Source: Streptomyces sp. NRRL F-5727 (GTDB lineage Bacteria; Actinomycetota; Actinomycetes; Streptomycetales; Streptomycetaceae). Taken from it: 64,000 bases of DNA. Shown here piece by piece: positions 29,133 to 49,368 of the stretch; position 1 is the stretch's first letter, and each line of letters starts with the position of its first letter. Under the pieces are notes generated by a model. It saw nothing but the letters and a program-made list of their open reading frames with translations. It ran no database searches and had not been told where the DNA came from. The position numbers and the translations under genes are program-made. The stretch spans positions 1 through 64,000 of the forward strand of contig NZ_JOGX01000011.1 in NCBI RefSeq assembly GCF_000719555.1, in the 5' to 3' direction.

Positions 29133-31349
29133 GTGACCGCCAAGACGCCCCGCACGGCGCCCCCGATCGACCCCGGCGAGCGCGCGCGGCTGCTCGCCGG
29201 GGAGCACCACGATCCGCACGCGCTGCTCGGCGCCCACCCGGTGAAGGGCGGCGTCGTCCTCCGGACGCTGCGGCCCTGGGCCCGGTCGGTCACGGCCGTG
29301 CTCCCGAAGGGGCGGACGGTCGAGCTGCGCCACGAGGGCGACGGCCTGTTCTCGGCGCTGGTGCCGCTGCTGCGGAAGGTCCCGGCGTACGAGTTCCGTG
29401 TGCGGTACGACGACGGGCCGGAGCTCGCCGTCCAGGATCCGTACCGGCACCTGCCCTCGCTCGGCGAGCTGGACCTGCATCTGATCGGCGAGGGCCGGCA
29501 CGAGGAGCTGTGGACGGCGCTCGGCTCCCGGGTGATGACCCACGGCGGGGTGTCCGGCACCCGCTTCGCCGTCTGGGCGCCGAACGCGCGCGGCGTCCGC
29601 GTCACCGGCGACTTCGTCCACTGGGACGGCACCGGGCTGCCGATGCGCTCGCTCGGCTCGACCGGCGTGTGGGAGCTGTTCGTGCCCGGCATCGGGGAGG
29701 GGGCGGTCTACAAGTACGACATCACCCGCCCCGACGGCTCGCACACCGTGCGGGCCGACCCGATGGCCCGGCGCACCGAGTGCCCGCCGAACACCGCCTC
29801 GATCGTCACCGCCTCGCACTACGAGTGGGGCGACCAGGAGTGGATGGCGCGGCGCGGGGCCCGGCCGCCGCACGAGGCGCCGATCTCGGTCTACGAGCTC
29901 CACCTCCCCTCCTGGCGACCCGGCCTGACCTACCGCCAGCTGGCCGAGGAGCTGCCCGCTTACGTCCGTGAACTCGGCTTCACGCACGTGGAGTTCATGC
30001 CGGTCACCGAGCATCCCTTCGGCGGCTCCTGGGGCTACCAGGTCACCGGCTTCTACGCGCCGACCGCCCGGCTCGGCACCCCGGACGACTTCAGGTACCT
30101 GGTGGACGCGCTGCACCGGGCCGGCATCGGCGTGCTGATGGACTGGGTGCCGGCCCACTTCCCCAAGGACGACTGGGCGCTGGCCGAGTTCGACGGGCGC
30201 CCGCTGTACGAGCACGCGGATCCGCGCCGCTCGCACCACCCGGACTGGGGCACCCTGGAGTTCGACTACGGCCGCAAGGAGGTGCGGAACTTCCTCGTCG
30301 CCAACGCGGTCTACTGGTGCCAGGAGTTCCACGTCGACGGCCTGCGGGTGGACGCGGTGGCGTCGATGCTCTACCTCGACTACTCGCGGGAGTACGGCGA
30401 GTGGCTGCCGAACGAGTACGGCGGCCGGGAGAACCTGGACGCGGTCGCCTTCCTCCAGGAGATGAACGCCACCGTCTACCGCCGCTGCCCCGGCATCGTG
30501 ACCTTCGCCGAGGAGTCGACCGCCTGGGACGGGGTGACCCGGGCGACGGACCTGGTCGGCCCGGGCGGCTTCGGCGGGCTCGGCTTCGGCATGAAGTGGA
30601 ACATGGGCTGGATGCACGACTCGCTCCAGTACATGGAGAAGGAGCCGGTGCACCGCAAGTACCACCACCACGAGATGACCTTCTCGATGGTGTACGCGTA
30701 CAGCGAGAACTACATCCTGCCGATCTCCCACGACGAAGTGGTGCACGGCAAGCGGGCGCTGGTGTCCAAGATGCCCGGCGACTGGTGGCAGCGGCGCGCC
30801 AACCACCGCGCCTACCTGGGCTTCATGTGGGCCCACCCGGGCAAGCAACTCCTCTTCATGGGGCAGGAGTTCGCGCAGGGTTCCGAGTGGTCGGCGGACC
30901 ACGGGCCGGAGTGGTGGCTGCTCGATCCGGAGTACGGCGCCGAGGCCGACCACCGGGGCGTGAGGGACCTGGTGCGGGACCTGAACCAGGTCTACACGGC
31001 GACGCCGTCGCTGTGGGAGCGGGACACCGCGCCGGAGGGCTTCGAGTGGGTGGTCGGGGACGCGGCGGACGACAACGTCCTCGCCTTCCTCCGCTACGAC
31101 GCCTTCGGCTCGCCGCTGCTCGCCGTCTGCAACTTCTCCCCCGTGGTCCGGCACGACTACCGGATCGGGGTGCCGGACGCCTTCGCCGCGTGGGGCGAGG
31201 TGCTGAACACGGACGCCTCCCGGTACGGCGGTTCGGACGTGGTCGGCACCGACCCGGTGAAGACCGAGTCGGTGCCGTGGCACGGGCGGGCGGCGAGCGT
31301 CCGGATGACGCTGCCGCCGCTCGCGACGGTCTGGCTCAGGCCCGCCTGA
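29133..31349 (+). CDS. glgB: 1,4-alpha-glucan branching enzyme
   Basis: A 738-residue GH13 branching enzyme that makes alpha-1,6 links in the glucan grown by GlgE. An N-terminal extension and CBM48 domain ([23 protein letters not shown]) precede the barrel. Nucleophile D407 in [11 protein letters not shown], acid/base E460 in FAEEST, and SHDEVVHGK complete the site. GTG 29133 has AGGAGG six bases upstream, an excellent site. Its 3' end overlaps the convergent helD gene by 14 bp. It is likely co-regulated with mak, 106 bp upstream. Confidence 0.95.
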
Positions 31350-33570
31350 CGATCCCGAGCCGCTGGGTGGCCCGGGTCAGCGCCACGTACAGGTCGTTCA
31401 CGCCGTGCGTGGCGCCGGCCCGGATGCCGTCCGGGTCGACGACGAGGACCGTGTCGAACTCGAGGCCCTTCGCCTGGCGGGGGTCGAGGAGGACCACCGG
31501 GCGGGTGAGGTCGGGCTTCGGGCCGTACGAGGCGTCGGGGAGGGCCGCGACCAGGCCGGGCAGCAGCTCCGGCGGGGCGATCACGGCGATCCGGCCCTCG
31601 CCGCCGAGCTCGGCGGCGACCGCGTCGGCGGTCTCCTTCACCGGGTCCTCGACGGTCCGGTCCCACGGTTCGACGCCGGTGGAGCGGACCGAGCCCGGCG
31701 GCTCGAAGGCCGGGTCGTCCGCCCGGCGGACGGCGGCGGCGACCGCCATGATCTCGGCGGGCGTGCGGTAGTTGACCCCGAGCCGCACGTGCTGCCAGCG
31801 GTCCTGCACGTACGGGGCGAGGATCGCGTCCCACGCGCCGACGCCGGCCGGGTCGCCGGTCTGGGCGGGGTCGCCGACCAGTGTCATCGAGCGGGTGGGG
31901 CTGCGGCGCATCAGCAGCCGCCACTGCATCGCGGACAGCTCCTGCGCCTCGTCGACGATGATGTGGCCGAAGGCCCAGGTGCGGTCGGCGGCGGCCCGCT
32001 CGGCGGCGGTGCGGTGGTCGGCCTCCTCGTGCCGCTCGGCGAACCGCTCGGCGTCGATGATGTCGTGCGCGGACAGCACCTCGGAGGCGTCCTCGTCCAG
32101 CTCCTCCTTGTCCTCGAACTCGTAGGTGCGGGAGGCGAAGGAGACGTCGAGGACGCCCTGGGCGTACTGCACCCGGCGCTGCCGCTCGGCCTCCTGGGCG
32201 GCGCGGGCGGCGGAGTCGTCGTGGCCGAGGAGTTCGGCGGCCTCGTCGAGGAGCGGCACGTCGCCCGGGGTCCAGGCGCCGCCGTCGCGGCGGATCGCCG
32301 CCGCGTCCTCCTCGGGGAGGTGGGTGGGCTCGGCGAGGTAGTCGGCGAGGAACTCCTCGGGGGTGAGCTCCGGCCAGAGGGTGTCGATGGCGGCGTGCAC
32401 GTCGGGGTTGGCGGCGATGCCCTTGGCGAGCAGGGCGATGTCGTCGGGGCCGAGGAAGTTGGGGCCGCCGTACGGGTCGGCGCCGATCCGGTCGGCGAGC
32501 TGCGCGGCGAGCGCGTCGAGGATCCGGAAGACGAAGTAGGGGCGGGCGAGGTTGTGCGGGAGGGCGGTCTCGCGGGCCTTGTGGCGGGCCTCCAGGGCCA
32601 TGTCCCAGTCGATGACCAGGTCGCCGTCCTCGTGCGGGACGATCAGCGGCGCGCCGCGCTCGGGGACCTGCTGCCGGTCGCGTACGGCCTCCGCCAGGGC
32701 GGCGGCCATCCGGACGTCGCCCTTCACGGCGGCGGCGCGGGCGGTGTCGGCGGCGCCGGCCCGGACGCCCGGGTACAGCTCGCCGGGGGTGGCGAGCAGG
32801 ACGCCGGTCTCGCCGAGCGAGGGCAGCACGTTGCCGATGTAGCCGAGGAAGGCCGGGTTGGGGCCGACGATGAGGACGGCCCGCCTGGCGAGCTGCTCGC
32901 GGTGGGCGTAGAGCAGGTACGCGGCGCGGTGCAGGGCGACCGCGGTCTTGCCGGTGCCGGGGCCGCCCTCGACGACCAGGACGCCGGTGTGCGGGGAGCG
33001 GATGATGGCGTCCTGCTCGGCCTGGATGGTCTGCACGATGTCGTGCATGCGGCCGGTGCGGGCGGCGTCGAGCGCGGCGAGCAGCACCTCGTCGGCGTCC
33101 CGGCCCTCGTGGCCGGAGCGGGTGCGGTCGGCGAGGTCGAGGACCTCGTCGTGGAGCGACACGACCTCGCGGCCCTTGGTGGTGATGTGCCGGCGGCGGC
33201 TGAGGCCCATCGGCTCGTGGCCGGTGGCGAGGTAGAAGGGGCGGGCGACGTCGGCTCGCCAGTCGACGACGAGCGGGGTCCGCCGCGGGTCGTCCTCGCG
33301 CAGGCCGATGCGCCCGATGTGGTGGTCGCGCCCGTCCCGGAAGACGAGCCGGCCGAAGCAGAGGCCGGTCTCGCCGGCGTTGAAGGCGGCGAGCAGCCCC
33401 GACTGCTCCGCCACCATGACGTCCCGCTCCAGGCGCGACTGCGCGCTGCCGGTCCCGGGCGTCCTGAGCGCCTCGCCGACGGCGGCCTCGGCCCGCTCCC
33501 TCAGGTCGTCGAGCCGCGCGTAGAGCGAGGTGATGAATTTCTGCTCGTCCCGAATTGGCTCGGTTGACAA
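31336..33570 (-). CDS. helD: HelD-family RNA polymerase-associated ATPase
   Basis: A 744-residue protein of the HelD/HelR group, UvrD-like motors that bind RNA polymerase, release stalled complexes and in some actinomycetes protect against rifamycins. An N-terminal coiled-coil arm (residues 8-60) is followed by Walker A GPGTGKT (203-209), DEAQ box [18 protein letters not shown] and the final [12 protein letters not shown]. The start is a TTG at 33570, the only reasonable initiator before the conserved arm. A plus-strand promoter overlaps these first codons. Whether it gives rifamycin tolerance cannot be read from sequence. Confidence 0.9.
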
Positions 33571-33593
33571 TTCGACTCCCAGCGCGATACAGT
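33564..33593 (+). promoter_or_regulatory. Consensus-like promoter antisense to the helD start
   Basis: TTGACA (33564-33569), 18-bp spacer, TACAGT (33588-33593) on the plus strand. This is one of the best promoter matches in the window. It lies over the first helD codons and points away from helD, toward the T-tract terminator at 33706. Confidence 0.55.
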
Positions 33594-33658
33594 GCCTTTA
33601 GTGAAATGCTCCATGAATTCCTCACGGAATCCTCGTGAGTGAGCACACGGAATTCACT

Positions 33659-33689
33659 AATATAGGCGCCGCACCACCCCGACTGTCAA
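33659..33689 (-). promoter_or_regulatory. Probable helD promoter
   Basis: On the minus strand TTGACA (33684-33689), 19-bp spacer, TATATT (33659-33664). It would start transcription near 33651, giving a leader of about 80 nt for helD. Its -35 lies in the loop and stem of the plus-strand terminator. Confidence 0.5.
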
Positions 33690-33706
33690 TTCAGCCGGGG
33701 TTTTTT
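33677..33706 (+). terminator. Rho-independent terminator with T-tract
   Basis: CCCCGACTG (33677-33685) pairs with CAGCCGGGG (33692-33700) with one mismatch and a 6-nt loop, followed by TTTTTT (33701-33706). The T-run is on the plus strand only, so it serves a plus-strand transcript. Such T-runs are uncommon in this GC-rich DNA. Confidence 0.75.
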
Positions 33707-33764
33707 CGTGCCGTCGCGCGGTTTCGGCGCGGTGCGGGACCGAGCACCGGAAGCCGGACAGGGC

Positions 33765-34208
33765 CTAGCCGAGGCTCTTGTGGAAGTGGACGTCCTCCGC
33801 GCCGCCCGGGATGCCGAGCGTGCGGCCGGTCTCCACGTACCCGTGCCGCCGGTAGAAGTCCGGGGCCTGGAAGGTGAAGGAGGAGACGGTGGCGCGGTCG
33901 CAGCCGCGCCGGCGGGCCTCGGCCTCGGCCGCGCGCAGCAGCCTGCTCCCCCAGCCGTCCCGGCGGCGGTCCTCGCGCACCCACAGCATCTCGATGCCGA
34001 GCAGTCCGCCCCAGGTCCAGGCGGTCAGCCCGCCGACGGTCTCGCCCGTCACCGGGTCCTGCGCCCGCACGGACAGCTCGCCCTGGTCCTCGGGGGTGGT
34101 CCCGGTGGCCGCGAAGTTGTACGCGTCGAGGCCCCGGTCCAGGAGCTTCGACAGCTCCGGGTCGCGGTCCCCGACGGTCAGACCCGCCTCGTCGTGATCA
34201 TGGTTCAT
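33765..34208 (-). CDS. GNAT-family N-acetyltransferase
   Basis: A 147-residue single-domain acetyltransferase. Motif A reads LWVREDRRRDGWGSRLLRAAEAEARRRGC, motif B SFTFQAPDFYRRHGYVETG, as in small-molecule GNAT enzymes. The ATG at 34208 overlaps the TGA of the upstream nitroreductase-hemerythrin gene (ATGA), so both belong to one operon and are likely co-translated. The substrate is unknown. Confidence 0.88.
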   Translation of the reverse strand: MNHDHDEAGLTVGDRDPELSKLLDRGLDAYNFAATGTTPEDQGELSVRAQDPVTGETVGGLTAWTWGGLLGIEMLWVREDRRRDGWGSRLLRAAEAEARRRGCDRATVSSFTFQAPDFYRRHGYVETGRTLGIPGGAEDVHFHKSLG

Positions 34209-35068
34209 GCGGGCGAGTCTGGCACGGACGCCCTCAGGAGCGGGACGATCTCCGCCTCCTCGTAGGCGAAGTGCGTCTCCAGCTCCGTCCGCAGCCGGTC
34301 GAACCCGGGGCGCAGCTCCGCCGGGCCGGTCTCGTCGACCCGGGCGAGCAGCTCCCGCAGTCCGTCCAGGGCGCGGGCGACGGTGTCGTGCTCGGCGCGC
34401 AGCCGCTCGAAGACCCCGGCCTTCTCCGGGAACTCCCGGGCCAGGTAGGGGAAGAGGCCCGCGTCCTCGCCGCCGTGGTGATGGGCGAGACCGGCGCAGA
34501 AGGTGAGGCAGTGGCGGCGGAGCTCCACCGTGAGGTCGGCGGCGCCCGGCGCGGCGAGGCCGTCGGCGAGGGCCGCGAGTTCCCCGCGCAGCCAGTCGTG
34601 GATCCTCACCAGCTCGTCGGCGAGGGCGTCGAGCCGGTCCGGCGGGGTGTGGTCGGAGTCGGGGATGCGGTGGAGGACGACGACGGGCAGGACCCGGTCG
34701 GTGGCCTTCTGGTAGTCGGCGTAGCCCGGGGCGGCGGCGACGACCTTGGCGAAGAGCGCGTCCCGTTCGGCGCCGGTGGCGGCGACGGCCGTCGCCCGCC
34801 AGCGGTCCGCGCCGCGTTCGACGGTCACGGTGGGGTGGACCAGGACGTTGCGGTACCAGTCCGGGTGGCGGTCGGAGCCGCCGGCCGAGCCGACGACGAG
34901 GAGCCGGTCGCCGTCCTCGACGAAGCCGAGCGGGGTGGTGTGTTCTCTTCCGGACCTGGCGCCGGTGGTGGTGAGGAGAAGGAGCACCCATCCCTCGAAG
35001 GGGCCGCCGAGTCGACCGGCGTTGGTGCGGAATTCTTCGATGACGCTGACGTTGAAGTCGAGAGGCAA
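34205..35068 (-). CDS. Fusion of an F420-type nitroreductase-like domain and a hemerythrin-like domain
   Basis: A 287-residue protein. Residues 1-130 match the Ddn/DUF385 nitroreductase family (LLLTTTGARSGREHTTPLGFVEDGDRLLVVGSAGGSDRHPDWYRNV), which uses deazaflavin F420. Residues 150-280 look like an HHE hemerythrin bundle, with HDW, HHHGGEDAGLFPYL, EHD and ETHFAYEEAEIVPLL offering iron ligands. The start is TTG; a TAG codon stands three codons upstream in frame, so nothing longer is possible. A role in redox or nitrosative stress is inferred from the domains. Confidence 0.82.
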   Translation of the reverse strand: MPLDFNVSVIEEFRTNAGRLGGPFEGWVLLLLTTTGARSGREHTTPLGFVEDGDRLLVVGSAGGSDRHPDWYRNVLVHPTVTVERGADRWRATAVAATGAERDALFAKVVAAAPGYADYQKATDRVLPVVVLHRIPDSDHTPPDRLDALADELVRIHDWLRGELAALADGLAAPGAADLTVELRRHCLTFCAGLAHHHGGEDAGLFPYLAREFPEKAGVFERLRAEHDTVARALDGLRELLARVDETGPAELRPGFDRLRTELETHFAYEEAEIVPLLRASVPDSPA

Positions 35069-49014: not shown

Positions 49015-49368
49015 GAGAATCCTCCTTCTCGGACGTACATCTCCAGGAGGGGCCCGGGGCCCGTCCTGGGATGGGAGAAGAGCTACGTCCTCGGGAAGGA
49101 GAGCGCCGAGGCATCAGGAGACGCGACGCGCGTCCGGATCACCGGCGATCACCCCCGAGCGACAACCATGTGCCGCGCGTGCGCACGGCCCGGTGGACAG
49201 GTCCTGCCCGGTGGGAGCAGGAACCCCCCTGTCCGATGGCCGGCAGCCTGGGGCGCCGGCCCGCCCGGTGGGGACCCGCGCCGCGCGTCCAGGCGGTTGC
49301 CGGGGCGTGCGGTTCGGACCGAGCGTGGCCGATCGTGGTCCATTCCCGGCGCCCGCACAAGGGGTTCA

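Follow-up and report, generated by a model that had tools for sequence, protein, structure and literature searches.

Convergent promoters are a feature of phage 186, in which one promoter interferes with the other. Interference of this kind is named in the discussion of a study of Bacillus subtilis (Sudzinova et al. 2026, PMC12802891), according to which the convergent promoters PhelD and Panti-helD, located at a Class I helD gene, form a rifampicin alarm. The two transcription start points of this pair are 39 bp apart, both starts included, and a 17-bp deletion abolished regulation, while mutation of the antisense -10 box de-repressed helD. The antisense promoter is described as the stronger of the two and the sense promoter as slow to clear; the antisense RNA is terminated and about 94 nt long. 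Exposure to rifampicin raises the sense transcript and lowers the antisense transcript, and deletion of helD left the regulation of helD unchanged (PMC12802891). The discussion of that paper assigns the helD genes of actinobacteria to control by the RAE, and its main text names Streptomyces once. Here we describe a pair of facing promoters at a Streptomyces helD gene and compare it with the B. subtilis alarm and with the RAE.

Anatomy of the helD locus in the window

The stretch of DNA analysed, referred to as the window, comprises 64,000 nt of Streptomyces sp. NRRL F-5727 (GCF_000719555.1, NZ_JOGX01000011.1, positions 1-64,000, forward strand) and is a Streptomyces-type chromosome segment. 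Residues 5-743 of its HelD align with M. smegmatis HelD (6yxu_H, 574.9 bits), through what we take to be the location of the PCh loop in the Class II HelD alignment; judged by this full-length homology, the protein is a Class II HelD. It scored below the curated NCBIfam cut-offs for HelR, reaching 419.3 of 750 bits with NF041254 and 711.2 of 1100 bits with NF041258. The widespread HelD group of this gene apparently has no curated NCBIfam family of its own, the nearest being the one at 711 of 1100 bits. On one flank of helD lie glgE, the maltokinase gene pep2 and glgB, and on the other a GNAT gene and further genes followed by pfkA, pta and pyk. We take SCO5439, beside glgB, to be the S. coelicolor counterpart. 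In S. venezuelae, glgB, pep2, treS and glgE are SVEN_5094-5097 (PMC5042117), so that glgB is two locus numbers from SVEN_5092, which encodes a HelD of 747 aa (PMC8655204). Given this synteny, the window helD is most likely of the SVEN_5092 type.

Table 1. Features of the helD locus (positions in the window)
Feature	Position	Strand	Remarks
helD	31336..33570	-	744 aa, TTG start; Class II RNA-polymerase-recycling motor
helD start codon	TTG 33570-33568	-	Start assigned in this work; SD GGGAG upstream
helD Shine-Dalgarno (SD) GGGAG	33576..33580	-	From the sequence; relatives show CTCC or CCCC at the same place
Antisense promoter P-anti-helD	33564..33593	+	TTGACA-18-TACAGT
Antisense promoter boxes	-35 TTGACA 33564-33569; -10 TACAGT 33588-33593	+	Predicted start A33600
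helD (sense) promoter	33659..33689	-	TTGACA-19-TATATT; from sequence and conservation
Sense promoter boxes	-35 TTGACA 33689-33684; -10 TATATT 33664-33659	-	Predicted start ~33652
Intrinsic terminator of the antisense RNA	33677..33706	+	Sense -35 box in the loop
Predicted antisense RNA	33600..33706	+	~107 nt, placed from promoter and terminator positions
Predicted 5'-terminal stem-loop of helD mRNA	33609..33652	-	Between both promoters; from folding

A sequence-only reading of this DNA had proposed the two facing promoters, and both are correct to the base (Table 1). Consensus matches number 11 of 12 for the sense promoter and 10 of 12 for the antisense promoter. The antisense -35 box overlaps the helD start codon, TTGACA being the complement of TTG-TCA, and the spacer of the same promoter overlaps the helD SD. 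A promoter scan of 19 kb listed the antisense site as its sole sigma70-like site, against 0.3 expected, and the exact pattern of the convergent pair had a single match in the strain's own genome.

The plus-strand stem followed by six T that had been proposed as a terminator is likewise present, with 8 of its 9 positions paired: the stem at 33677-33700 (CCCCGACTG/CAGCCGGGG) precedes T6 at 33701-33706 and folds at -12.2 kcal/mol (z -3.57 in the window). A terminator scan of 19 kb found two other stems, against 2.9 expected, and did not list this imperfect stem in the helD leader; for this reason the local scan gives the terminator no support, but its conservation does. The candidate plus-strand RNA is predicted to be 107 nt long, and its overlap with the helD transcript, earlier put at about 50 nt, comes to the first ~53 nt of the helD leader, with full complementarity. 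On the mRNA, the predicted start at 33600 corresponds to a point some 20 nt ahead of the SD, so that the antisense RNA would cover neither the SD nor the start codon. That the plus RNA can fold agrees with the stretch 33599-33706, for which z is -3.12.

We also considered other identities for the plus RNA. As an mRNA it was rejected, the ORFs at 33635-33877 and 33708-34265 giving no Pfam match at E 0.001, and as a known sRNA it was set aside as well, none being named at the site in the relevant portions of PMC8655204, PMC10719064, PMC3781837 and PMC6584129; PMC11678152 left antisense transcripts out. When the window was searched with Rfam at gathering thresholds, nothing was found at the facing-promoter site. 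The only hit lay elsewhere, a che1 RNA (RF02935) at 49143-49235 on the minus strand, whose score of 82.1 bits exceeds the gathering score of 54.1.

Conservation and spacing of the facing promoters

Conservation in relatives had been set beforehand as a check able to refute the sequence-only reading, and the arrangement was found to be kept in nearly all ortholog upstreams. For an estimate free of any search pattern, helD orthologs were collected at E <= 1e-150; they were present in 95 of 101 genomes, and 90 upstreams were read (L031 and L202-L290, with genomes G010, G030, G037, G043 and G050 left out). A lenient script detected the full arrangement in 86 of these 90, including L246, which was counted only via a degenerate sense -10, and inspection by eye added L214, in which all boxes are present. 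The antisense promoter alone was kept in two upstreams (L233 and L251), and L207 is a protein match that lacks the N-terminus and begins at residue 76. The script detected an antisense TTGACA followed by TANNNT at 16-19 bp in 88 of the 90 upstreams, and in L214 it was recognised by eye; the antisense -35 is TTGACA in 89 of the 90. The TTG start and a serine codon TCA are kept along with this box; over 24 ORFs of the window, TCA accounts for 6 of 604 serine codons.

Searches with patterns extended this survey. BLAST of 181 bp against 199 genomes of the genus matched 36, and at 30 matched loci the order of the boxes was constant while the DNA between them was very different. These 30 and 80 named helD loci, whose genomes are partly shared, gave 110 loci, and the whole arrangement was recognised by a regex in 106 of them, the one failure among the 80 named loci being L066. 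Loci with an incomplete match (L014, L017, L026 and L066; in a second count L014, L066 and L168) were left out, as were duplicates. The exact pattern TTGACAAT..ATATA..GTCAA was found in 94 of 392 genus genomes and a looser pattern in 111 of 132 genus genomes, a set that overlaps the first, and in 1 of 15 genomes from elsewhere in the order; the reversed controls of both patterns gave 0 matches. Matches in 10 of 51 genomes from other genera of the family were counted irrespective of their position relative to helD. The regexes demand TTGACAA, TANNNT and near-AATATA and leave the gap free within 44-112, so the box frequencies obtained with them are not free estimates. Together, the data indicate that the facing-promoter arrangement is real and not a product of chance, and that it is kept in nearly all Streptomyces helD upstreams read.

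Two observations concern individual records. The helD matches at L066 and L207 start only at residue 75-76 and have no facing promoters ahead of them; these may be the same or sister genomes. In L039, from a record titled Microtetraspora glauca, helD is 96% identical and is preceded by the arrangement of Streptomyces type; the record title may be outdated or mislabelled.

Among the 86 upstreams, the antisense -10 was TATACT in 29, TACAGT in 17 and TATGGT in 12. Averaged over 219 unique elements, the antisense -10 matches TATAAT at 4.1 of 6 positions, its -35 being TTGACA by construction of the test, and the sense -35 matches its consensus at 4.7 of 6; in these elements the sense -10 is mostly TATATT and the sense -35 varies (TTGACG, TTGACA, TTGCGC). 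The total consensus matches are about equal, so that by sequence neither promoter stands out as the stronger. In 214 of the 219 elements the terminator has a core stem with 5 or more GC pairs, and CAA or CCA, the tested part of the sense -35, lies inside the hairpin in 212. At least 4 T within the next 10 nt follow the stem on the plus strand in 169 elements, on the minus strand in 73 and on both in 70; because many stems run into symmetrical A/T tracts these counts are low estimates, and some of the terminators may work in both directions. By a script test, 13 of the 219 elements have an additional plus-strand hairpin that resembles a terminator and precedes the sense start, so that some antisense RNAs might be only ~40 nt long. 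Such extra hairpins, with a T-run between the promoters, were seen in L060, L167, L186, L197 and in a clade resembling L232, L234 and L240.

The distance between the two -10 boxes falls into classes: it is 50-55 in 173 of the 219 elements, 60-66 in 34 and 75-76 in 7, with single elements at 68, 72, 74, 91 and 109 and none at 56-59. A count over 111 genomes agrees, bar four at 46-49 and one at 59, and so do the 86 pattern-free upstreams, with 50-55 in 75, 61-66 in 8, and also 72, 91 and 109. With start points taken 7 nt from each -10, the predicted starts are separated by about 40 bp in elements of the main class (gap 52) and by about 53 bp in the window (gap 65). The HelD tree of 158 rows requires at least 24 changes of spacing class, indicating that the longer classes arose many times. 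The spacings cluster in steps of ~11-12 bp (resultant 0.80 at 11.5 bp and 0.68 at 10.5 bp, for 18 long-spacing lineages picked by eye from the tree order and with the period chosen afterwards), and the elements at 68, 72, 91, 59 and 46-49 fit such steps poorly. A role for rotation, that is helical phase, between the promoters is suggestive only.

How the facing promoters may act on helD

Two modes of helD control had been put forward in the sequence-only reading, transcriptional interference and antisense RNA. Given that both promoters, their spacing and the terminator are conserved, and that the B. subtilis counterpart was shown experimentally, interference is supported, and antisense RNA is less so. 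We think it probable that the pair is a convergent-promoter interference switch for a Class II helD without RAE, acting like that of B. subtilis, with the antisense RNA mainly a by-product. According to this model, the antisense promoter inside the helD leader would fire towards the helD promoter, and its transcript would end at the terminator built over the helD -35 box; each antisense polymerase would sweep the whole helD promoter and displace or occlude polymerase there. When antisense initiation falters, for instance with polymerase trapped by an inhibitor or initiation slowed, interference would drop and helD would be transcribed, by analogy with B. subtilis, for which this was shown. The hairpin between the promoters would serve the helD mRNA as a stem-loop at its 5' end, as the strand-biased wobble pairs of relatives suggest. 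Unusual protein occupancy suggested upstream of sven5092 (PMC3781837) is in line with the model. Against it stand the consensus scores, which give the antisense promoter no lead over the sense promoter, the position of the 19-bp spacer on the sense promoter, and the expression of S. coelicolor helD genes, described as varying only about 2-fold with growth phase (PMC8655204).

A stricter likeness, in which the pair reproduces the full B. subtilis alarm by specifically sensing sub-inhibitory rifampicin-type inhibitors and inducing the window-type helD, is possible and appears doubtful to us. Such a mechanism requires just polymerase and two promoters, and the two systems share the gene family, the main-class spacing and a terminated antisense transcript comparable in length (~94 nt in B. 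subtilis, ~107 nt predicted here). However, of the five helD genes of S. venezuelae only SVEN_6029, the one bearing an RAE, is given as rifampicin-induced in the pertinent section of PMC8655204 (Larsen 2021, citing Surette et al.), and hence the window-type ortholog seems not to be induced. Moreover, an RAE-linked HelR and rox are already present in the genome. The exact core of the RAE-like palindrome occurs there at two sites only, before a HelR paralog (L032, G000 C4; 1224 bits against a cut-off of 750, NF041254) and before the rifampin monooxygenase gene rox (L306, G000 C28; 810.7 bits against a cut-off of 800), and the RAE of S. venezuelae is likewise located at rox and helR (PMC10719064). 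Around the window helD, a search allowing up to 3 mismatches found no RAE palindrome (19 bp). Given an RAE-like palindrome at HelR and none at the window helD, we concluded that two helD control systems stand side by side in the genome of Streptomyces sp. NRRL F-5727.

A wider reading takes the pair as a polymerase collision site, with fixed distance and helical phase, that senses stalled or trapped polymerase generally, HelD clearing the site and thereby feeding back on its own gene. We consider it unlikely; the B. subtilis helD deletion, which did not alter regulation (PMC12802891), speaks against the feedback. WhiA ChIP-seq in S. venezuelae, as reported for the untagged control, had its sole genome peak upstream of sven5092 (PMC3781837), suggesting unusual protein occupancy there, or alternatively cross-reaction of the antibody. 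If the site does hold colliding polymerases, this peak would be their footprint. The peak is possibly a sign of polymerase crowded at the facing promoters.

The hairpin between the promoters bears on the remaining alternatives. Analysis of 138 representatives revealed a stem above the score used in 117, its sequence differing between clades. Among the non-Watson-Crick pairs of these 117 stems, plus-strand A.C pairs, which are G.U in the helD mRNA, number 135 and plus-strand G.U pairs 57 (p 3e-4, adjusted for the composition of the arms, with kinship corrected only by 75% clustering). Of 105 representatives, 81 have a sense strand that folds more stably than the plus strand, and in 23 it is the less stable one. 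In 65 of the 117 stems the distance from the stem base to the sense -10 is 5-7 nt, which places the stem start near the predicted helD start; a distance of 5-8 nt covers 74 stems. Because of the strand-biased wobble and the stem's position near the predicted helD start, the hairpin of the relatives resembles a stem-loop at the 5' end of the helD mRNA. The window by itself favours neither strand, its overlap stretch giving z -2.31 for the minus and z -2.24 for the plus strand. Covariation, to which the sequence-only reading had pointed, was checked only within the gap-52 class, since hairpin registers differ between clades: in register, over 49 representatives, the best register has 41% Watson-Crick pairs against 20-34% for the others.

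These results make it improbable, in our judgement, that the antisense RNA pairs with the helD leader and alters its stability or translation. The ~53 nt of full complementarity and the stable plus-RNA fold in the window would suit such pairing, but the start of the RNA, ~20 nt short of the SD, leaves both SD and start codon uncovered, the sequence of the overlap varies widely between clades, the wobble pairs of the 117 stems are biased away from plus G.U, and 13 of 219 elements carry the early terminator-like hairpin. The helD leader could instead be the main conserved function, a 5'-terminal stem-loop for stability or promoter escape beside a weak or silent antisense promoter. The closeness of the stem base to the sense -10 and the stabler fold of the sense strand agree with this. 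However, it leaves unexplained the plus-strand TTGACA and TANNNT at 17-18 bp and the plus-strand terminator, and in the window the longer helD leader, 33540-33656, folds no better than shuffles (z -0.39); we regard a leader function of this kind as highly improbable. A transcription factor bound to the inter-promoter palindrome deserves next to no credence: an inverted repeat is present in 117 of 138 representatives and the untagged ChIP peak lies upstream of sven5092, but the sequence of the repeat differs between clades with its pairing kept, in contrast to protein-binding sites of the RAE kind.

Facing promoters compared with known helD control systems

In the open-licence papers searched, a facing-promoter arrangement at helD is undescribed for actinobacteria; the supplementary tables of PMC12802891 may list Streptomyces sites. 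Since the antisense -35 falls within the helD start, the filter of that study against overlap with annotated regions may have discarded such sites. What appears to be new is the convergent-promoter layout at an actinobacterial Class II helD, and what was known is the Class I switch of B. subtilis.

Having the same layout and main-class spacing at a Class II helD implies either great age of the design or two separate origins at genes of the same kind. The arrangement makes the sensing of polymerase trapping in general directly testable. It also offers a reason for the presence of several helD genes in Streptomyces, with an RAE-controlled HelR alongside a HelD under convergent promoters. The S. 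venezuelae ChIP-seq peak obtained without a tagged protein might be explained by the arrangement as well.

Relative to phage 186, the Streptomyces site has no repressor gene, and gene and spacing differ. The RAE-controlled helR and rox share with the window helD the genome and the protein superfamily, whereas the window helD is without RAE. The closest likeness is to the B. subtilis alarm: in both, promoters of sigma-A type, as judged from their boxes, face each other upstream of helD, the start points lie about 40 bp (predicted, Streptomyces main class) and 39 bp apart, and a short antisense RNA, predicted in Streptomyces, ends at an intrinsic terminator located upstream of the sense promoter. 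Unlike in B. subtilis, the antisense -35 of Streptomyces overlaps the helD start codon, the sense -35 lies within the loop of the antisense terminator, and the spacing clusters in ~11-12 bp steps; the 19-bp spacer belongs to the sense promoter in the window, whereas in B. subtilis it belongs to the antisense promoter. The genes differ as well, that of B. subtilis being Class I and that of Streptomyces an actinobacterial Class II helD whose response to rifampicin is doubtful. In its anatomical features, as read from the sequence, the Streptomyces site corresponds to the dual-promoter helD system of B. subtilis, and it probably functions like it.
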